NCBI GenBank assembly: GCA_017437285.1
Contig: JAFSBM010000229.1
Location: forward strand, 1-47,372
Direction: 5' to 3'
From: Ruminococcus sp.
Lineage (GTDB): Bacteria > Bacillota > Clostridia > Oscillospirales > Ruminococcaceae
DNA length: 47,372 nt
The position numbers and the translations under genes were made by a program. Shown in pieces: positions 10,913 through 18,150 of this stretch. A model generated the notes under the pieces. The model saw nothing but the letters and a program-made list of their open reading frames with translations. It was not told the DNA's origin and did no database searches. Every line of letters starts with the position of its first letter. Position 1 is the first letter of the stretch.

Positions 10913-10944
10913 TTGACAAATTATTAATAATGTGATATTATTAA
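10913..10944 (+). promoter_or_regulatory. Promoter and overlapping palindromic operator of the NAD operon
   Basis: TTGACA (10913-10918), 17 nt, then an extended -10 TGA-TATTAT (10936-10941). A perfect 8-bp inverted repeat TTAATAAT (10924-10931) and ATTATTAA (10937-10944), spaced by GTGAT, covers the -10. A repressor bound there would block the polymerase. NrtR regulators bind palindromes of about 21 bp in NAD genes, and the first gene of the operon ends in an NrtR-like module. The sequence is AT-rich, so the palindrome alone is only moderate evidence. Confidence 0.6.
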
Positions 10945-10973: not shown

Positions 10974-13139
10974 ATGGATAACAAAAACACATACGAAACA
11001 GGGTTACTGTATCATCACTATGCTAATACAGCATATCCGCTGACACCGCACTCATTTATGCAGTATAAGCTTACGGACAAAGGCGAGATTATGGATTTTG
11101 TCACGGAGCAATGGAAAAATGTGGATGAACTAAGTTTGTACATTCATATTCCGTTCTGCAAGAGCCGCTGTAAATTCTGCGAATATGTGGTATTAGAGGG
11201 TACTGATGAAACAATTGAGGATGAATATGTAGATTTGCTTTTAAAAGAAATGGAGATGTATTCTCAAATCCTCAAAGGCAAAAAAATTGTTGGTTATGAC
11301 CTTGGCGGCGGTACACCTACAAAGCTTTCGGTAGAAAATCTGAAAAGGATTACTGATGCAGTTAACACGTTGTTTAACATTGATACAGATGTGATTTACA
11401 GCATTGAAACCACACCGCTTATTGCTGCAAACGAACCCGAAAAGATAAAGGCAGTTTATGATATGGGGTATAAGCGAATTAGTATGGGTGTGCAGACGGT
11501 ATCGGAAAAACTGCTGTCGGAGCTTGGCAGGGACGGTTCAAAGAGTATTTATGAAAGGGCAGTTGAGAATATCCGAAATGCAGGTTTTCAGCGTTTTAAC
11601 ATTGACCTTATGTACGGTTTTCTCTATCAGACTGATGTGGATTTTGATAACACCCTCAATTATGCTATTAAGCTTAATCCCGAATATATCACGCTTTACA
11701 GAAACCGTTACAAGGGAACAAAGCTTGAAAGTGAAGCAGGCGGCGTTTCCATTTATAAAGCAATGCATCAGTACCGCATAGCATACAGAATTCTTACTGA
11801 TAACGGCTATATGGCAAATGTTGGAAAGAACACATTCAGCCGCATTGAGGGGGATTACGGTACAAGTGATTACCTCACAAAGCGAGTAATTAACGGCACA
11901 TCTTATGTGGGTATGGGACTTGGAGCCCAATCCTTTGGCGACAGTTATCTTGCCTATAATCTTGGTGCAGCTGAGAAGAAAATGGAGCGATACCGCAAGG
12001 CTGTTAATGCAGGGGAGTTGCCATTTCAGGATATTTACAGACTGCCGCAGGATGAAGCAATTGCAAAAATGGTATCCGTAGCATTTTACTTCGCTTTTGT
12101 GGATATGGACGCTTTTGAAAAGAGATTTCACATTAATTTCAAGGAAAGATTTGCAAGTGAAATTGAATTTGTTCTTGAAAACGGCTTAATGGAAATCAAG
12201 GGCAGCCGAATTTATCTTACTGAAAGAGGTTCGGATTATATCAACGGTGTAATTCCGTTGTTCTATTCAGAACGGTCAAAAGAGGAACTTAAAACGGCAT
12301 TCAGTAAAAAATCCTTGGCAGCGGAAGATGATGAAAAACTCTTTTTATCAGCGTACAATGCAAATGATTACGACAGACCGTCAATTGCTGCTGATATTGT
12401 AGTTTTTTCTGTGACGAACCAAAAGGATATCGAGCCTAAGCGTTCTCCCGATCCGAAACTGAAAGTTCTGCTCATTAAACGTGGCGAACATCCCTTTATG
12501 AATCATTGGGCATTACCCGGAGGATTTCTCAAAAATGATGAAACCATGGAAGAATGTGCATTCAGAGAGGTTGCAGAGGAAACAAATGTATCTCCGAAAG
12601 CGCTGCTTCCAATCGGAGTATTCAGCGACCCTGACAGAGATGTGAGAACGAGAGTTGTTTCAAATGCATTTTTATCCGTGGTTGATGCGGAGGAATATCA
12701 CGCTGTAGGCGGCGATGATGCTGTGGCTGCGGAATGGTTTGAGGTATCTTTCCATGTGGGGGAGGATAATAAGATTACGATAAACCTTTCAAAGGACGAT
12801 ACACAAATTGAGTGTATTCTTGAAATGCAGATTAATCAATTTGGAAATGTAACATACACTATTTTAGAAAACGGCGGACTTGCATTTGACCATGCAAAAA
12901 TACTTGCAACTGCATTTCGTATAATGCGTAATCAGAAAGATGAATATGAACTGGTATTCCGTTTTCTTCCTAAGAAATTCACTTTATCTTCAATGCAGAG
13001 GGTTTACGAAATTATCAACAATATTTTTGACCAGCCTGCAAATTTCAGAAGAAAAGCTGCAAATTATGTAGTTGAAACGGATGAATATGAGGACTGTATC
13101 GGACACAGACCTGCAAAATTATATGAACGAAAGCTATAA
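10974..13139 (+). CDS. Radical SAM (HemW-like) / NUDIX / winged-helix fusion protein
   Basis: This 721-aa protein joins two unrelated modules. Residues 1 to about 430 resemble HemW/coproporphyrinogen oxidase-like radical SAM proteins: C62, C66 and C69 form CxxxCxxC, followed by GGGTPTKL, SMGVQT and GLGAQSFG, with a HemN-like C-terminal part. Residues about 465-620 are a NUDIX domain with a nearly complete box at 517-539 (G x5 E x7 REVAEE), the late Gly being N538. Residues about 660-715 (LPKKFTLSSMQRVYEIINNI, NFRRKA) match the winged helix of NrtR, the ADP-ribose-responsive repressor of NAD genes. It leads an operon of NAD salvage genes under a palindromic promoter, so autoregulation is likely. 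What the radical SAM part does here is unknown. The gene reads through without a frameshift, so it is a true fusion. Confidence 0.85.
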   Translation: MDNKNTYETGLLYHHYANTAYPLTPHSFMQYKLTDKGEIMDFVTEQWKNVDELSLYIHIPFCKSRCKFCEYVVLEGTDETIEDEYVDLLLKEMEMYSQILKGKKIVGYDLGGGTPTKLSVENLKRITDAVNTLFNIDTDVIYSIETTPLIAANEPEKIKAVYDMGYKRISMGVQTVSEKLLSELGRDGSKSIYERAVENIRNAGFQRFNIDLMYGFLYQTDVDFDNTLNYAIKLNPEYITLYRNRYKGTKLESEAGGVSIYKAMHQYRIAYRILTDNGYMANVGKNTFSRIEGDYGTSDYLTKRVINGTSYVGMGLGAQSFGDSYLAYNLGAAEKKMERYRKAVNAGELPFQDIYRLPQDEAIAKMVSVAFYFAFVDMDAFEKRFHINFKERFASEIEFVLENGLMEIKGSRIYLTERGSDYINGVIPLFYSERSKEELKTAFSKKSLAAEDDEKLFLSAYNANDYDRPSIAADIVVFSVTNQKDIEPKRSPDPKLKVLLIKRGEHPFMNHWALPGGFLKNDETMEECAFREVAEETNVSPKALLPIGVFSDPDRDVRTRVVSNAFLSVVDAEEYHAVGGDDAVAAEWFEVSFHVGEDNKITINLSKDDTQIECILEMQINQFGNVTYTILENGGLAFDHAKILATAFRIMRNQKDEYELVFRFLPKKFTLSSMQRVYEIINNIFDQPANFRRKAANYVVETDEYEDCIGHRPAKLYERKL

Positions 13140-13163: not shown

Positions 13164-13694
13164 ATGAAACATTTATTAGTAGTTGTAGACATTCAGAAAG
13201 ATTTTGTTGACGGAGCCCTTGGAACTGCCGAAGCAGTTGCAATTGTGGAGAATGCGGCAAAGAAAATCCGTGAATTTGACGGCGAAATTTTCGTAACTTA
13301 CGATACACATTTTGAAAATTATATGGAAACAGCTGAGGGTGCAAAGCTTCCCGTTCCCCATTGTATCAAGGGAACTGAGGGCTGGGAACTCAATGCAGAT
13401 ATTGCAGATGCTTTAGCGAATAAGAAATATACTGTCGTTGAGAAAATCACTTTCGGTTCAACGGAACTTCCTGAGCTTGTGAAAAAAGCTGTGGGCGATG
13501 AGGATTTTGATGTAACGCTTATTGGTCTTTGTACCGATATTTGCGTAGTATCCAACGCTCTCATTCTTAAAGCAAATTTCCCTGAAAAAGAGGTTTATGT
13601 AGATGCTGCTTGCTGTGCAGGTGTTACAGTTGATACACATAATGCCGCACTTGCAACAATGAAAATGTGCCAGATTAACGTGATAGGTGAATAA
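13164..13694 (+). CDS. pncA: Nicotinamidase (isochorismatase-fold amidase)
   Basis: It probably hydrolyses nicotinamide to nicotinate and ammonia, the first step of the deamidating NAD salvage route. The 176-aa isochorismatase-family protein shows the presumed triad D9 (VVVDIQKDF), K94 and C127 in GLCTDICV. The D47-x-H49 pair is a likely metal-binding motif as in PncA enzymes. It lies 24 nt after the fusion gene, with an AGGAGG ribosome-binding site, and 2 nt before the next gene. The operon makes nicotinamidase more likely than another hydrolase of this fold. Confidence 0.88.
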   Translation: MKHLLVVVDIQKDFVDGALGTAEAVAIVENAAKKIREFDGEIFVTYDTHFENYMETAEGAKLPVPHCIKGTEGWELNADIADALANKKYTVVEKITFGSTELPELVKKAVGDEDFDVTLIGLCTDICVVSNALILKANFPEKEVYVDAACCAGVTVDTHNAALATMKMCQINVIGE

Positions 13695-13696
13695 AA

Positions 13697-14494
13697 ATGA
13701 TTGAGCTTAACGGAAAGAAAATCGAAATCGGCAATTTCCCTGACGGAACGCTTCTGATAAAGGAAAACGTGGAGAAAAGCTACGATACAGACCGTAGTGC
13801 GGCGATAAAATGGCATTTTGAAAATAACGAGGAACTGGTGGCACTTATCTATATTGTCAAGCATCTCAAATTCCACGGCATTAACAGAGTACACCTTGAT
13901 ATGCCGTATATTCCCAACGCAAGACAGGACAGAGTAAAATCCGATGAAGATGTGTTCACTTTGAAATATTTTGCGGAAACAATCAATTGGCTTGGATTTG
14001 CCTCTGTAACGGTATTGGACCCACATTCAACTGTCAGCGAAGCACTTTTTGACAATATAATTATCAAAACTCCAAAGGAAAATATTGCAAAGGTAATTGA
14101 TGAAATCGGCGAAGAAAATCTGATGATGTTCTATCCTGATGAGGGTGCAATGAAACGATACAACGCATTAGCAGATAAGCCCTTTGCCTTTGGTATCAAG
14201 AAAAGGGATTGGGCAACGGGTAAAATTAAGGGGCTTGATGTTTCAGGTGCAACTGAAATGATTGAGGGAAGCCGTGTGCTGATTGTAGACGATATATGCT
14301 CTAAAGGCGGTACATTCTACCACAGTGCCAAAAGACTCAAAGAGCTTGGTGCTGCCGAAGTTTATCTCTATGTATCCCATTGCGAAAATTCTATTTTGCA
14401 GGGTGAAGTTCTCACAAGCGGACTTATTGAAAGGGTATTCACAACAGACAGTATCTTTACCGAAAAACATGAAAAGATTACTGTTATAAAATAA
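13697..14494 (+). CDS. PRPP-synthetase-like pyrophosphokinase, short and divergent
   Basis: The protein has 265 aa, shorter than usual bacterial Prs enzymes of about 315. It retains ARQDR (75-79) and H110 (DPHS for DLHA) of the ATP site, and a KKR loop at 168-170. The ribose-5-phosphate loop, normally DDxxDTGGT, reads DDICSKGGT (198-206): the Asp and Thr are replaced by Ser and Lys. It could make PRPP for the neighbouring transferase. The loop changes and the pairing with a NAMPT-like gene also recall phage pairs, once annotated Prs plus NadV, reported to pyrophosphorylate ADP-ribose (Adps) and join it to nicotinamide (Namat). Which acceptor it uses cannot be decided from the sequence. Confidence 0.75.
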   Translation: MIELNGKKIEIGNFPDGTLLIKENVEKSYDTDRSAAIKWHFENNEELVALIYIVKHLKFHGINRVHLDMPYIPNARQDRVKSDEDVFTLKYFAETINWLGFASVTVLDPHSTVSEALFDNIIIKTPKENIAKVIDEIGEENLMMFYPDEGAMKRYNALADKPFAFGIKKRDWATGKIKGLDVSGATEMIEGSRVLIVDDICSKGGTFYHSAKRLKELGAAEVYLYVSHCENSILQGEVLTSGLIERVFTTDSIFTEKHEKITVIK

Positions 14495-14508
14495 GGGGAG
14501 AATTTGAA

Positions 14509-15984
14509 ATGAATAAGAAAATTAATCCGATGCTTTTAATTGATTTTTACAAGGCAGTTCATGCTGAAATGCTGCCAAAGGATATTACAAAATCCGTGTC
14601 CTATTTCACTCCCAGAATGAGCAGAGTGAAGATGTGGGATAAGGTTGTAATGTTCGGTTTACAGGGATTTATCAAGACATATCTCATTGAATATTTCAAC
14701 AGCGAATTTTTTGACAGACCCTTTGACGAGGTAATGGGGGAGTACAGAAGAATTATGGACGCATCTCTTGGAAAGGATGCCTACAAAATCGAAAAGGTGG
14801 AAAAGCTGCATCAGCTTGGCTATCTGCCAATTGAAATTATTTCTTTGCCCGAGGGTACAAGAGTTCCCATGCACGTGCCGATGTTCGGAATTACAAATAC
14901 ACATCCTGATTTTGCATGGCTGCCACAATCTCTTGAAAGCCTTATTTCCGCTGAAAGCTGGCATCCGATGTTAGCGGCAACAGTTGGTGCAACTTACCGT
15001 GATATAGTTAACAGATATTATGCCAAAACCTGTGATGATAACGTATCCCGTGCAAGGGCATTGGGTGCATTTGATTTCAGAGGTGAGGAGTGTACGGAAT
15101 CCGCAATTAAAGCAGGTGCAGGCTGGTGTCTGTCATTCCTCAATACCGCTACAGTTCCCACAATTCCCTATCTTGAAGCATATTACAACTGCGATTGCAC
15201 AAAGGAGCAGGTAGCTTTTGGAAGTCCCAGCACAGAACATTCTGTAATGTGTTCGAATTTCGCCATTGACGGCGATGAAATCACACTTCTCCGCAGACTT
15301 CTTACAGAGATTTATCCCAATACAAGCTTTTCTGCGGTGCTTGACTCCTACGATTACTGGAATATCATTGAAAATGTTTTGCCGCAGCTTAAAGAGGAAA
15401 TCCTTGCCCATAACGGCTGTATGCTGATGCGTGGCGACAGCGGTGATTGCGTTGAAGTTGTTACACGGACAGTATTTAAGCTTTGGGAAATTTTCGGCGG
15501 AACTGTAAACAGCAAGGGTTACAAGGTGCTTGACCCTCATGTGAAGGCTATTTACGGCGATTCTATTACAATTCAAAGATGTGAGGCTATCTATAAAATC
15601 CTTGAAGAAAATGGATTTGCCTGTTCAAATGTTGCATTGGGCGTAGGTTCATTCTCAATGCAATGCGTGGAGGAGGACGGCATATTGAAGCCGTTTACAA
15701 GAGATACATTTTCTTCCTGCATTAAGGCGACATATTGCGAAATTGCAGATGTTCCCTATCCGATTTTCAAAAATCCCAAGGACGGCGGATTTAAGAAATC
15801 TCAGAAAGGCTGCTGTATCGTAACTTTTGAGGACGGCGAATATCGCTTTACCGATGGTCATACATGGGCAGAAGCTTGTGCAGATGAAAATAATCAGCTT
15901 GTAACTGTATTCAAAGACGGAAATATGGTAAAAGAGCAGACTCTTGCAGAAATCAGAGGAGTTCTGCATAACGGTAATTTCTGA
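14509..15984 (+). CDS. NAMPT/NadV-family phosphoribosyltransferase with altered base pocket
   Basis: This 491-aa protein aligns along its length with nicotinamide phosphoribosyltransferase. The catalytic His is H244 (PSTEHS for AAEHS), and the phosphate-site region GDS (RGDSGD, IYGDS) and NSKGYK are kept. From the shared RG (191-192) an ungapped match to the mammalian enzyme puts A214 (FLNTATV) at the position of Asp219 (FKGTDTV), the residue that contacts the nicotinamide amide. Loss of that Asp suggests nicotinate rather than nicotinamide as the base, which fits PncA and NadE in the same operon. The sugar donor may be PRPP or, as in phage Namat, ADP-ribose pyrophosphate. The symbol is withheld because substrate specificity is uncertain. 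Confidence 0.82.
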   Translation: MNKKINPMLLIDFYKAVHAEMLPKDITKSVSYFTPRMSRVKMWDKVVMFGLQGFIKTYLIEYFNSEFFDRPFDEVMGEYRRIMDASLGKDAYKIEKVEKLHQLGYLPIEIISLPEGTRVPMHVPMFGITNTHPDFAWLPQSLESLISAESWHPMLAATVGATYRDIVNRYYAKTCDDNVSRARALGAFDFRGEECTESAIKAGAGWCLSFLNTATVPTIPYLEAYYNCDCTKEQVAFGSPSTEHSVMCSNFAIDGDEITLLRRLLTEIYPNTSFSAVLDSYDYWNIIENVLPQLKEEILAHNGCMLMRGDSGDCVEVVTRTVFKLWEIFGGTVNSKGYKVLDPHVKAIYGDSITIQRCEAIYKILEENGFACSNVALGVGSFSMQCVEEDGILKPFTRDTFSSCIKATYCEIADVPYPIFKNPKDGGFKKSQKGCCIVTFEDGEYRFTDGHTWAEACADENNQLVTVFKDGNMVKEQTLAEIRGVLHNGNF

Positions 15985-16004
15985 TTGAAATGGTGGTGTT
16001 TTGA

Positions 16005-16736
16005 ATGTTTGATGCTAAAAAAGTAAAGGACGAATGTGTTCTTTGGATAAGAAAATTTTTCGAGGAAAATGGTGCAGGCTGTAACGCTGTACTGGGAATT
16101 TCAGGCGGAAAGGATAGTTCTGTTGCAGCAGCTCTCTGTGTTGAAGCATTGGGGGCAGACCGTGTAATCGGCGTGCTTATGCCGCAGGGTGAGCAGCATG
16201 ATATTGATATGGCTTATATGCTTGTAAATCATCTGAATATCAAGCATTATGTTGTAAATATCAAGGATGCAGTTGACGGTATTCTCAAAAATATTCCCGA
16301 TAATCTTGCTATTACAGAGCAGGCAAGAACAAATCTTCCTCCACGAATCAGAATGTCAACTTTGTATGCTGTTTCTCAAAGCTGCAACGGCAGAGTATGC
16401 AATACCTGCAATTTATCTGAGGACTGGGTTGGATATTCAACACGTTACGGCGACTCTGTAGGCGATTTCAGCCCATTGTCACAGCTGACTGTTGCAGAGG
16501 TCAAGGAAATCGGCAGATTATTAAATCTTCCTGATGTTTTGGTTGATAAAGTTCCGATTGACGGCTTATGCGGAAAGACTGACGAGGACAATCTCGGATT
16601 CACATATGCCGAGCTGGATAAATATATTCGCACAGGTGAAATTGAGGATATGGATAAAAAACAGCGTATTGATACAATGCATAAAAAGAATCTGTTTAAA
16701 TTACAGCTTATGCCGTCTTTTGTACCGACAAAATAA
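16005..16736 (+). CDS. nadE: Ammonia-dependent NAD+ synthetase
   Basis: It amidates nicotinate adenine dinucleotide (NaAD) to NAD+ using ATP and ammonia. The 243-aa protein has the PP-loop SGGKDSS at 33-39, the conserved segments TNLPPRIRM and GDSVGDFSPLSQLTVAEV, and the typical C-terminal KRIDTMHKKN-like motif (KQRIDTMHKKN). There is no glutaminase domain, so it uses free ammonia. It is last in the operon. Its substrate, NaAD, implies that the upstream transferase feeds the deamidated branch. No NaMN adenylyltransferase gene accompanies it here. Confidence 0.95.
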   Translation: MFDAKKVKDECVLWIRKFFEENGAGCNAVLGISGGKDSSVAAALCVEALGADRVIGVLMPQGEQHDIDMAYMLVNHLNIKHYVVNIKDAVDGILKNIPDNLAITEQARTNLPPRIRMSTLYAVSQSCNGRVCNTCNLSEDWVGYSTRYGDSVGDFSPLSQLTVAEVKEIGRLLNLPDVLVDKVPIDGLCGKTDEDNLGFTYAELDKYIRTGEIEDMDKKQRIDTMHKKNLFKLQLMPSFVPTK

Positions 16737-16772: not shown

Positions 16773-16806
16773 AAGGCAATACCGCACAAAACTGCGGTAT
16801 TGCCTT
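16773..16806. terminator. Bidirectional terminator between the NAD operon and the ccdA operon
   Basis: AAGGCAATACCGCA and TGCGGTATTGCCTT form a perfect 14-bp stem with a 6-nt loop. T-rich tracts follow on both strands (GTTTTTATTT on plus, TGTTTTTATA on minus), so it can end both convergent transcripts. Confidence 0.92.
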
Positions 16807-17550: not shown

Positions 17551-17847
17551 TTATTTATTGTAAATCATATCAATTCCCTTTTGGAGAATATCGCCGCTTA
17601 TTGCACCTGTGGCATAGGTAACGAAATTTCCGTCAGCATCAATAAAGAAAGTTGTGGGGAGAGAGTATACACCATATTTCATTGACGCATCGGAGTCGTT
17701 GTCGTAATATACAGGAAAACTATAACCTGTGGATTTTATAAATTCCGAGGCAATTTCAACTGTTTCCCGTGAGCCGTCGGTGGAATTGACCATAATGAAA
17801 TTTATATCCTCGCCAAGTTCCAGATATTTTTCATTGAAATCAGGCAT
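17551..17847 (-). CDS. TlpA/ResA-like thioredoxin-fold protein, C-terminal part after in-frame stop
   Basis: This 98-aa reading carries the second half of a thioredoxin fold: MPDFNEKY, the VNSTDG strand and the cis-proline loop GVYSLPTTFFIDADG. It starts with an ATG directly after the TAA (17850-17848) that ends the N-terminal part, in the same frame. Across the stop the reading is CGPCKM-stop-MPDF, where family members have CxxE-MPDF, so a single GAA-to-TAA change explains it. Alone it lacks the CxxC and would not be a redox enzyme. Restart at the adjacent ATG, read-through or a sequencing error are alternatives. Confidence 0.7.
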   Translation of the reverse strand: MPDFNEKYLELGEDINFIMVNSTDGSRETVEIASEFIKSTGYSFPVYYDNDSDASMKYGVYSLPTTFFIDADGNFVTYATGAISGDILQKGIDMIYNK

Positions 17848-18150
17848 TTACATTTTACACGGACCGCACCAGCTTGCCCAGAAATTCAGCACAACGGGTT
17901 TACCCTTAAAATCCGAGAGATGAACAGGATTTCCGTCAATATCATATACAGTAAAATCGGGGGCGACAATTTTTTCAGCCGATTGTTCCGAGGAATTGCC
18001 GGATGAAGAATCTGAGCTTGTCTGAGAAGTTTGGGCTGCAAGCTGCTGTGACTCCACTTTATCGCCAAGTTTATTGTAAAGCACAGATGCACCGCCAATG
18101 AGTAAAATAAGTAAAACCGAAAGAATAACAAGAGTTTTTTTGCTTTTCAT
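17848..18150 (-). CDS. TlpA/ResA-like thiol-disulfide oxidoreductase, N-terminal part truncated by a stop codon
   Basis: This 100-aa reading has an N-terminal membrane anchor (about residues 6-25), a Ser/Gln-rich linker (about 33-60), the domain start [14 protein letters not shown] and the active site WCGPC (C95, C98). It stops two residues later. The intact protein would be an extracytoplasmic thioredoxin-like reductase of about 199 aa receiving electrons from CcdA, whose gene ends 9 nt upstream. Its start has AAGGAG at good spacing. The fragment keeps the CxxC but lacks most of the fold, so it is probably inactive unless the stop is bypassed. Confidence 0.75.

Follow-up and report, generated by a model that had tools for sequence, protein, structure and literature searches.

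An Adps–Namat-like gene pair flanked by pncA and nadE: a predicted nicotinate counterpart of NARP1 in clostridial bacteria and phages

How might an operon that encodes a nicotinamidase and an NAD+ synthetase, with a kinase and a transferase between them and no adenylyltransferase within it, make nicotinamide adenine dinucleotide (NAD+)? The question is raised by a 47,372-nucleotide (nt) stretch of a Ruminococcus sp. genome (assembly GCA_017437285.1, contig JAFSBM010000229.1; the whole stretch is called the window below), in which five open reading frames (ORFs) lie in tandem on the plus strand at spacings of 24, 2, 14 and 20 nt: a regulator, a PncA-like nicotinamidase, a Prs-like kinase, a NAMPT-like transferase and NadE. 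A first-pass annotation of the window had described the four enzyme genes in these terms and had suggested that the middle pair works like Adps and Namat, the enzymes of NARP1 systems that pyrophosphorylate ADP-ribose and join it to nicotinamide, but with nicotinate as the base; the ORFs and their Pfam matches bear out the description of the genes. We put at roughly 0.8 the probability that this operon rebuilds NAD+ from ADP-ribose and nicotinamide by way of nicotinate, ADP-ribose pyrophosphate (ADPR-PP) and nicotinate adenine dinucleotide (NaAD), a deamidated form of NARP1 that we predict from sequence comparison.

A switched base pocket and its gene neighbours

The transferase, predicted to be Namat-like (14509–15984, plus strand; 491 amino acids (aa); NAPRTase/NAMPT_N in Pfam), finds its best sequence matches in the Protein Data Bank in SPbetaL1 Namat (9W5X/9W5W, 386 bits) and in 9ke8 (310 bits), an entry titled nicotinamide phosphoribosyltransferase; Nampts score far lower in the same search (Xanthomonas Nampt 170 bits, mammalian Nampts about 145). 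Passages of PMC12774641 describe how, in SPbetaL1 Namat, D215 hydrogen-bonds nicotinamide and the adenine of ADPR-PP sits in a clamp of F392, Y396 and R40, and give a clamp motif, GSX-phi-X-phi-X-phi-TRD, that distinguishes Namat from Nampt. In the window enzyme, A214 stands in place of Asp215, the residue expected of NARP1, and S241 in place of A242; R39 and F382 correspond to R40 and F392, and the places of R306, D308, F189 and R192 are kept. Nicotinate phosphoribosyltransferases have a serine for the pocket aspartate, which should itself favour nicotinamide, not nicotinate, according to parts of PMC10907753, and a passage of PMC7096376 credits Khan et al. with identifying Asp219 as fundamental to substrate choice in NAMPT.

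Relatives were drawn from GTDB contigs, IMG/VR, sampled genomes and phage records: 208 loci with a transferase-like ORF, 204 of them of at least 400 aa, which dereplication at 95% identity reduced to 170. By the residue at position 215 (SPbetaL1 numbering) these homologues form two classes, one with aspartate or glutamate (D/E) and always with A242 (86/86), the other with alanine or serine (A/S) and always with S242 (84/84). Each class was collected with a query alignment of its own (A1 or A2, the best 80 matches of each), so that the class sizes carry no meaning; the D/E class takes in three clamp-less Nampt-like references (L134–L136) and L226. Within the available flanking DNA, neither PncA nor NadE is encoded near any D/E transferase (0/86), whereas A/S loci hold PncA in 76 of 84 cases, NadE in 73, at least one of these in 82 and Adps in 81; among viral loci with at least 3.5 kb on each side, PncA is present in 48/52 and NadE in 47/52 A/S loci, against 0/56 D-type loci. 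The A/S operons, from 57 IMG/VR contigs, 26 bacterial genomes (the window included) and one phage record, show 20 gene orders, some owing to shortened flanks. Nicotinate as the base, which the first-pass annotation had supposed, is thus supported by the joint loss of the aspartate and gain of Ser242 throughout the class and by its company of pncA and nadE. Where a partner is absent nearby, NadE is found in the rest of the record in four of six viral records and a PncA-family protein in three of six; in bacterial genomes NadE was found in 2/2, which would be expected in any case, and a PncA-family protein in 1/1.

A check blind to the pocket residues brought in 12 further records, namely six of seven phage matches to a PncA search (the seventh, MT835544, was already in the main set), five of 52 plasmid matches to the transferase and one phage match to an S-type query. 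All seven of the transferase-bearing loci fit the rule: Acetoanaerobium noterae (NrtR-PncA-Adps-transferase-NadE) and phage Phass-1 (PncA-Adps-transferase-x-NadE) have A215/S242, and Persicobacter, Bacillus phage KLEB27-3 and plasmids of B. subtilis, Jeotgalibacillus and Paenibacillus have D215/A242 with neither PncA nor NadE. Five PncA-bearing phage records (L240–L244) showed no transferase within the stretch examined, and scans of viral contigs with the transferases of Phass-1 and of L245 found no relative. Spread among bacteria is patchy, with matches in 3 of 398 genomes of a phylum-wide sample (only the window's own genome strong, two weak) and in 5 of 197 of a family-wide one, own genome included. 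In one viral contig (L104, 5983–7449) the transferase is divided into two ORFs. The residue rule, D215/A242 against A or S with S242, separates the two systems and is open to test.

The clamp bears on the other substrate. It is present in deep A/S members, reading GSYTYQYVTRD in L043 (an Oscillospiraceae metagenome-assembled genome) and L129 (a genome of the window's family), which together branch off first within the A/S clade, and GAYTYQYVTRD, with Ala for Ser, in Phass-1; all three have A215/S242. Because these first-branch members, and Phass-1 with its unsure place, keep the clamp alongside the A/S pocket, the ADPR-PP clamp was probably already there when the base pocket changed, and this combination argues for a reaction of ADPR-PP with nicotinate to give NaAD. 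Across the class, F or Y stands at 392 and the catalytic His is kept in all 84 members, and R40 in 74; an insert in the clamp helix occurs in 82, and in 70 of those 82 an F or Y lies directly ahead of TRD, where it might replace Tyr396.

In a transferase tree of 140 of the 170 sequences (all 84 A/S and 56 of the 86 D/E), the A/S class is a single clade (Shimodaira–Hasegawa-like approximate likelihood ratio test (SH-aLRT) 99), sister to the D-type Namats (80) and not within them, the two jointly at 87. Three clamp-less Nampt-like references, taken as users of phosphoribosyl pyrophosphate (PRPP), fall outside both, as does L226. Clustering with PRPP-using nicotinate enzymes had been named at first pass as an outcome that would tell against the proposal; that comparison, run in part, with the three clamp-less references standing for the PRPP users, did not tell against it, as the transferase lies apart from them. 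Phass-1 (L239, OQ749652.1), a human-gut phage filed under 'code 15 clade' with an annotated suppressor tRNA (CTA), has a transferase on a very long branch, outside the A/S clade when an outgroup is included and with the clade (92/86) without it; as a case of independent switching it is not decisive.

The adjoining kinase, predicted to be Adps-like (13697–14494, plus strand; 265 aa; Pribosyltran/Pribosyltran_N in Pfam), is as short and as altered in its loop as the first reading had it: the loop reads DDICSKGGTF, where SPbetaL1 Adps has DDLSSFGGTF and three solved Prs have DDIISTGGT or DDIIDTAGT. It is 44% identical to SPbetaL1 Adps and 22–28% identical to four Prs, and Adps-like proteins, the window kinase among them, group against Prs in both trees made (support 97 with four Prs, 70 of 160 rows; 100/100 with three Prs, 42 rows). 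With the kinase beside Adps and the transferase in a clade sister to Namats, comparison supports the suggested likeness of the pair. In three window-type bacterial loci (L023, L041 and L045) the Adps groups with that of a D-type virus (99/97); the transferase of L023 is 88% identical to the window's and its Adps only 35%, and L045 retains no more than the first 45 or so residues of its transferase. This apparent exchange of kinases between classes within the operon is not confirmed by the approximately unbiased test, which does not reject A/S Adps as a single clade (p 0.20).

The proposed route and its rivals

In the route that we infer, from the substrates of kinase and transferase to products, direction and role, PncA would convert nicotinamide to nicotinate, the Adps-like kinase would make ADPR-PP and AMP from ADP-ribose and ATP, the Namat-like transferase, its base pocket switched to nicotinate, would join ADPR-PP and nicotinate into NaAD with release of pyrophosphate (PPi), and NadE would amidate NaAD to NAD+, making an adenylyltransferase step at nicotinate mononucleotide (NaMN) unnecessary. 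In the bacterium, ADP-ribose would probably derepress the operon through NrtR; in viral relatives, the route would probably repair NAD+ broken by host NADases or ADP-ribosyltransferases, a DarG-like macrodomain supplying ADP-ribose in about a third of loci. NaAD may be an intermediate that NADases cannot cut. It seems fairly probable that a nicotinate ADP-ribosyl-pyrophosphate transferase (ADPR-PP + nicotinate -> NaAD + PPi) closes the NAD+ cycle in this way in phages and clostridial bacteria. A literature search returned no nicotinate version of NARP1 and no description of such a transferase activity, and a word search of two NARP1 papers gave zero occurrences of nicotinate, NaAD or nicotinamidase. 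According to parts of PMC11559045, ICP1 NrsAB was at first assigned to nicotinate use with PRPP; once Adps and Namat had been reported, it was assigned to the nicotinamide route instead. The ICP1 transferase (L131) has D215, which agrees with the later reading.

Were the product NaMN, it would pay a virus that encodes NadE to encode NadD as well. Among 38 whole viral records, some of which may be fragments, nine have PF01467 matches (11 in all); the eight matches read comprise four CoaD, one RfaE/TagD-like and three NMNAT/NadR-like below cut-offs, with no NadD above cut-off among them. PHROG 2, which we take to be the terminase large subunit, matches 25 of these 38 records, some weakly; because it also matches 11 of 14 control genomes from bacteria and archaea, it speaks only roughly for a phage origin of the contigs. 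A macrodomain is found at 60 bits in 30/84 A/S loci against 0/86 D/E loci, at 28 bits in 8/86 D/E loci, and not in the window. For each of four macrodomains tested DarG is the best match (47–66 bits, equivalog cut-off 250), and the PADLOC DarG model gives 68.7 bits for one. The macrodomain of DarG strips ADP-ribose from DNA, a part of PMC11481870 reports. A DarG-like macrodomain is a plausible source of ADP-ribose; in phage operons such a glycohydrolase may recover it from DarT-modified DNA, linking repair of the mark with rebuilding of the cofactor.

The conservative alternative at first pass was ordinary PRPP-based nicotinate salvage, in which the Prs-like protein makes PRPP, the transferase NaMN, a nadD elsewhere NaAD, and NadE the final product. 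One part of it stood: nadD is indeed present outside the operon, on contig C81 (TIGR00482, 169.8 bits, cut-off 112.45), in this assembly of 4.13 Mb (G000; completeness 99.9%, contamination 4%). We accordingly rejected the step from absence in the operon to absence in the cell, and a missing operon adenylyltransferase alone proves nothing. The same assembly also holds a separate pncB on C121 (TIGR01514, 416 bits), of another NCBIfam family than the operon transferase, together with another PRPP synthetase gene (prs) and nadA. With pncB, prs and nadD at hand the operon's kinase–transferase pair is not needed for PRPP-based salvage, which can therefore probably run without these two middle genes. 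Family names side with salvage, NF006629 calling the transferase a nicotinate phosphoribosyltransferase (440 bits, cut-off 405) and TIGR01251 (ribP_PPkin) lying just above its cut-off for the kinase (118 against 113 bits), but neither discriminates: SPbetaL1 Namat itself scores 593.7 bits with NF006629, which also matches two clamp-less Nampt-like proteins, and SPbetaL1 Adps scores 106 bits with TIGR01251. We set the NF006629 name aside as uninformative, the assayed Namat, clamp-less Nampt-like proteins and A-type enzymes all being named alike; NARP1-like systems are hidden by this annotation. Kinase and transferase, moreover, cluster with Adps and Namat, viral carriers retain NadE without a recognised NadD among the matches read, and the salvage explanation is improbable. 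A second NadE frame, on contig C122 (L017), has one in-frame TAG, and the operon NadE may therefore be the sole intact copy in the assembly.

Close kinship to Namat and Adps would equally suit a plain NARP1, in which the pair yields NAD+ by reacting ADPR-PP with nicotinamide while PncA and NadE serve a side route, but the aspartate that contacts the nicotinamide amide is missing from every one of the 84 class members, PncA would consume the nicotinamide substrate, and the D/E-type loci lack PncA and NadE altogether (0/86), so that we rate this reading as very improbable. An enzyme specific for nicotinate could also accept two donors, making NaAD from ADPR-PP and NaMN from PRPP as supply allows, the altered clamp of the window's sub-clade then reflecting relaxed donor choice; SPbetaL1 Namat retains PRPP activity in vitro (part of PMC12774641), and the clamp-helix insert is found in nearly all A/S members (82/84). 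The persistence of F/Y392 (84/84) and of R40 (74/84), and of Adps in 81 of the 84 loci, makes such a dual-donor enzyme unlikely.

Several points weigh against the NaAD route. The window's own clamp is broken, reading GSFSMQC(VEEDGILKP)FTRD, with nine residues inserted ahead of TRD, the equivalents of F392 and R40 kept and Tyr396 lost (a Cys in pairwise alignment, though the residue at this place varies with the alignment of the insert). Preference for ADPR-PP is therefore less certain for the window enzyme than for L043 or Phass-1, and the PRPP use of SPbetaL1 Namat in vitro means that donor use could be mixed. The A/S class being essentially one clade, its association with particular neighbours may reflect one evolutionary event, later kept; we read it as mainly such an event retained through many rearrangements, which limits its statistical weight, and Phass-1 may be a second origin of the nicotinate switch, on which the trees disagree. 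The Adps phylogeny is noisy, with A/S and D/E classes intermixed. Less than 1 kb of DNA is available on one side in 10/86 D/E loci against 1/84 A/S loci; two A/S loci (L071 and L079) have neither partner nearby, NadE lying elsewhere in both records and a PncA-family protein in that of L071; and the large IMG/VR scans supplied the best 80 of 214 and the best 80 of at least 525 matches. The PncA-like protein matches curated nicotinamidases weakly (NF008623, 25 bits, cut-off 174), and at 4% contamination the other NAD genes of the assembly might partly be foreign. The support is comparative throughout, with enzyme activities as predictions.

Should the route prove correct, NARP1, which was defined by nicotinamide, would have a sister system that runs on nicotinate and brings in a new enzyme activity. 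Such a system would explain pncA and nadE in viral operons without nadD recognised in the searched records, and would point to NAD+ rebuilding being adapted to the bases that a host has to offer; that hosts of such viruses deamidate nicotinamide is our guess. In bacteria, copies controlled by NrtR would be this route put to use as regulated metabolism.

Operon layout and regulator

The outer enzymes of the operon are conventional in fold. The PncA-like protein (13164–13694, plus strand; 176 aa; Isochorismatase 80.2 bits) has the isochorismatase fold, and its D9, K94 and C127 and its D47/H49/H66 agree with what we take to be the expected nicotinamidase sites. NadE (16005–16736, plus strand; 243 aa) is an ammonia-type NAD+ synthetase (NAD_synthase 175.2 bits; TIGR00552 168 bits, cut-off 63.65) with SGGKDS at residues 33–38. 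Upstream, a sigma-70-like promoter, TTGACA-17-TATTAT with TG ahead of the -10 element (10913–10941, plus strand; 11/12 matches), is weak evidence alone, 20 promoter-like sites being observed in the region against 17.0 expected. It is overlapped by a candidate operator palindrome read from the sequence, TTAATAAT-GTGAT-ATTATTAA (10924–10944), for which we see no clear conservation; elements upstream of relatives are similar, not conserved. As an NrtR site the palindrome is weak: 147 of 2000 shuffles score 13/16 or better, and the window's own 16/16 is circular, the pattern having been derived from it. Past nadE lies a terminator-like stem of 14 pairs with a T-rich tail on both strands (16773–16806), one of six such stems in the region against 4.1 expected; promoter-like site and stem are consistent with a single transcript.

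The first gene of the operon (10974–13139, plus strand) encodes a 721-aa fusion of a HemN-like radical SAM protein with NUDIX and NrtR winged-helix domains, presumed to be an ADP-ribose-responsive regulator, each part above its Pfam cut-off (Radical_SAM 63.7 bits, NUDIX 59.5, NrtR_WHD 51.1, HemN_C 26.9). The NUDIX and winged-helix pair of an NrtR regulon is thus present inside the operon, fused to a radical SAM domain, and by homology to NrtR the NUDIX module would sense ADP-ribose; part of PMC6800001 reports that ADP-ribose, at 50 mM, frees MsNrtR from DNA. Among A/S loci with good flanks, NrtR adjoins 12 of 17 from the genome collections, against 1 of 52 viral ones. Since NrtR also controls ordinary NAD genes and adjoins a D-type pair in Persicobacter, it is a pointer to ADP-ribose or NAD control, not to the base used. 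In that Persicobacter plasmid (L246, 4306–7470) the D-type Adps–Namat pair sits 3' of a NUDIX-NrtR regulator, and bacterial NARP1 proper may likewise be under an ADP-ribose sensor. Pfam confirms the in-frame radical SAM fusion in the window and in L022 (1504–3666); full-length NrtR matches in other relatives are ORFs of roughly 230–320 aa. A heme-related or redox input into NAD regulation through the fusion is possible. Downstream, on the minus strand (17551–18150), a thioredoxin/TlpA-like gene is cut by one in-frame TAA directly after CGPCKM into two abutting ORFs.

Comparison with known systems

The nearest known system is NARP1 (SPbetaL1, bacterial pfNARP1 and ICP1 NrsAB), in which, as parts of PMC12774641 and PMC11559045 describe, an Adps-type kinase likewise adjoins a Namat-type transferase, with both viral and bacterial carriers. 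Unlike NARP1, the window class has A or S with S in place of D215/A242, adds PncA and NadE, often carries a DarG-like macrodomain, has NrtR in 12 of its 17 well-flanked bacterial loci and bears the clamp insert in 82 of 84 members; judged by these sequences, the operon probably operates in the manner of NARP1, although the base residue that defines NARP1 sets it apart. With the Preiss-Handler route (PncA-PncB-NadD-NadE) it shares the PncA and NadE ends and, by our prediction, the nicotinate base, and part of PMC10907753 reports a Ser at the same pocket position in its nicotinate phosphoribosyltransferases; the operon transferase, by contrast, is not of the PncB type, the kinase is Adps-like and NadD lies outside the operon (C81). 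The phage NadV/Nampt system with an adenylyltransferase for nicotinamide mononucleotide (ACP17, L136) resembles it in having a NAMPT-family transferase, but there the enzyme has D215 and no adenine clamp (GMGGALLQ), the adenylyltransferase adjoins it and no Adps was found. DarG, the antitoxin of DarTG, is matched best of all by the four macrodomains tested, in a class where 30 of 84 A/S loci carry one, whereas these A/S macrodomains are short, match the model no further than about position 145 of 338 and score far under the cut-off of 250.

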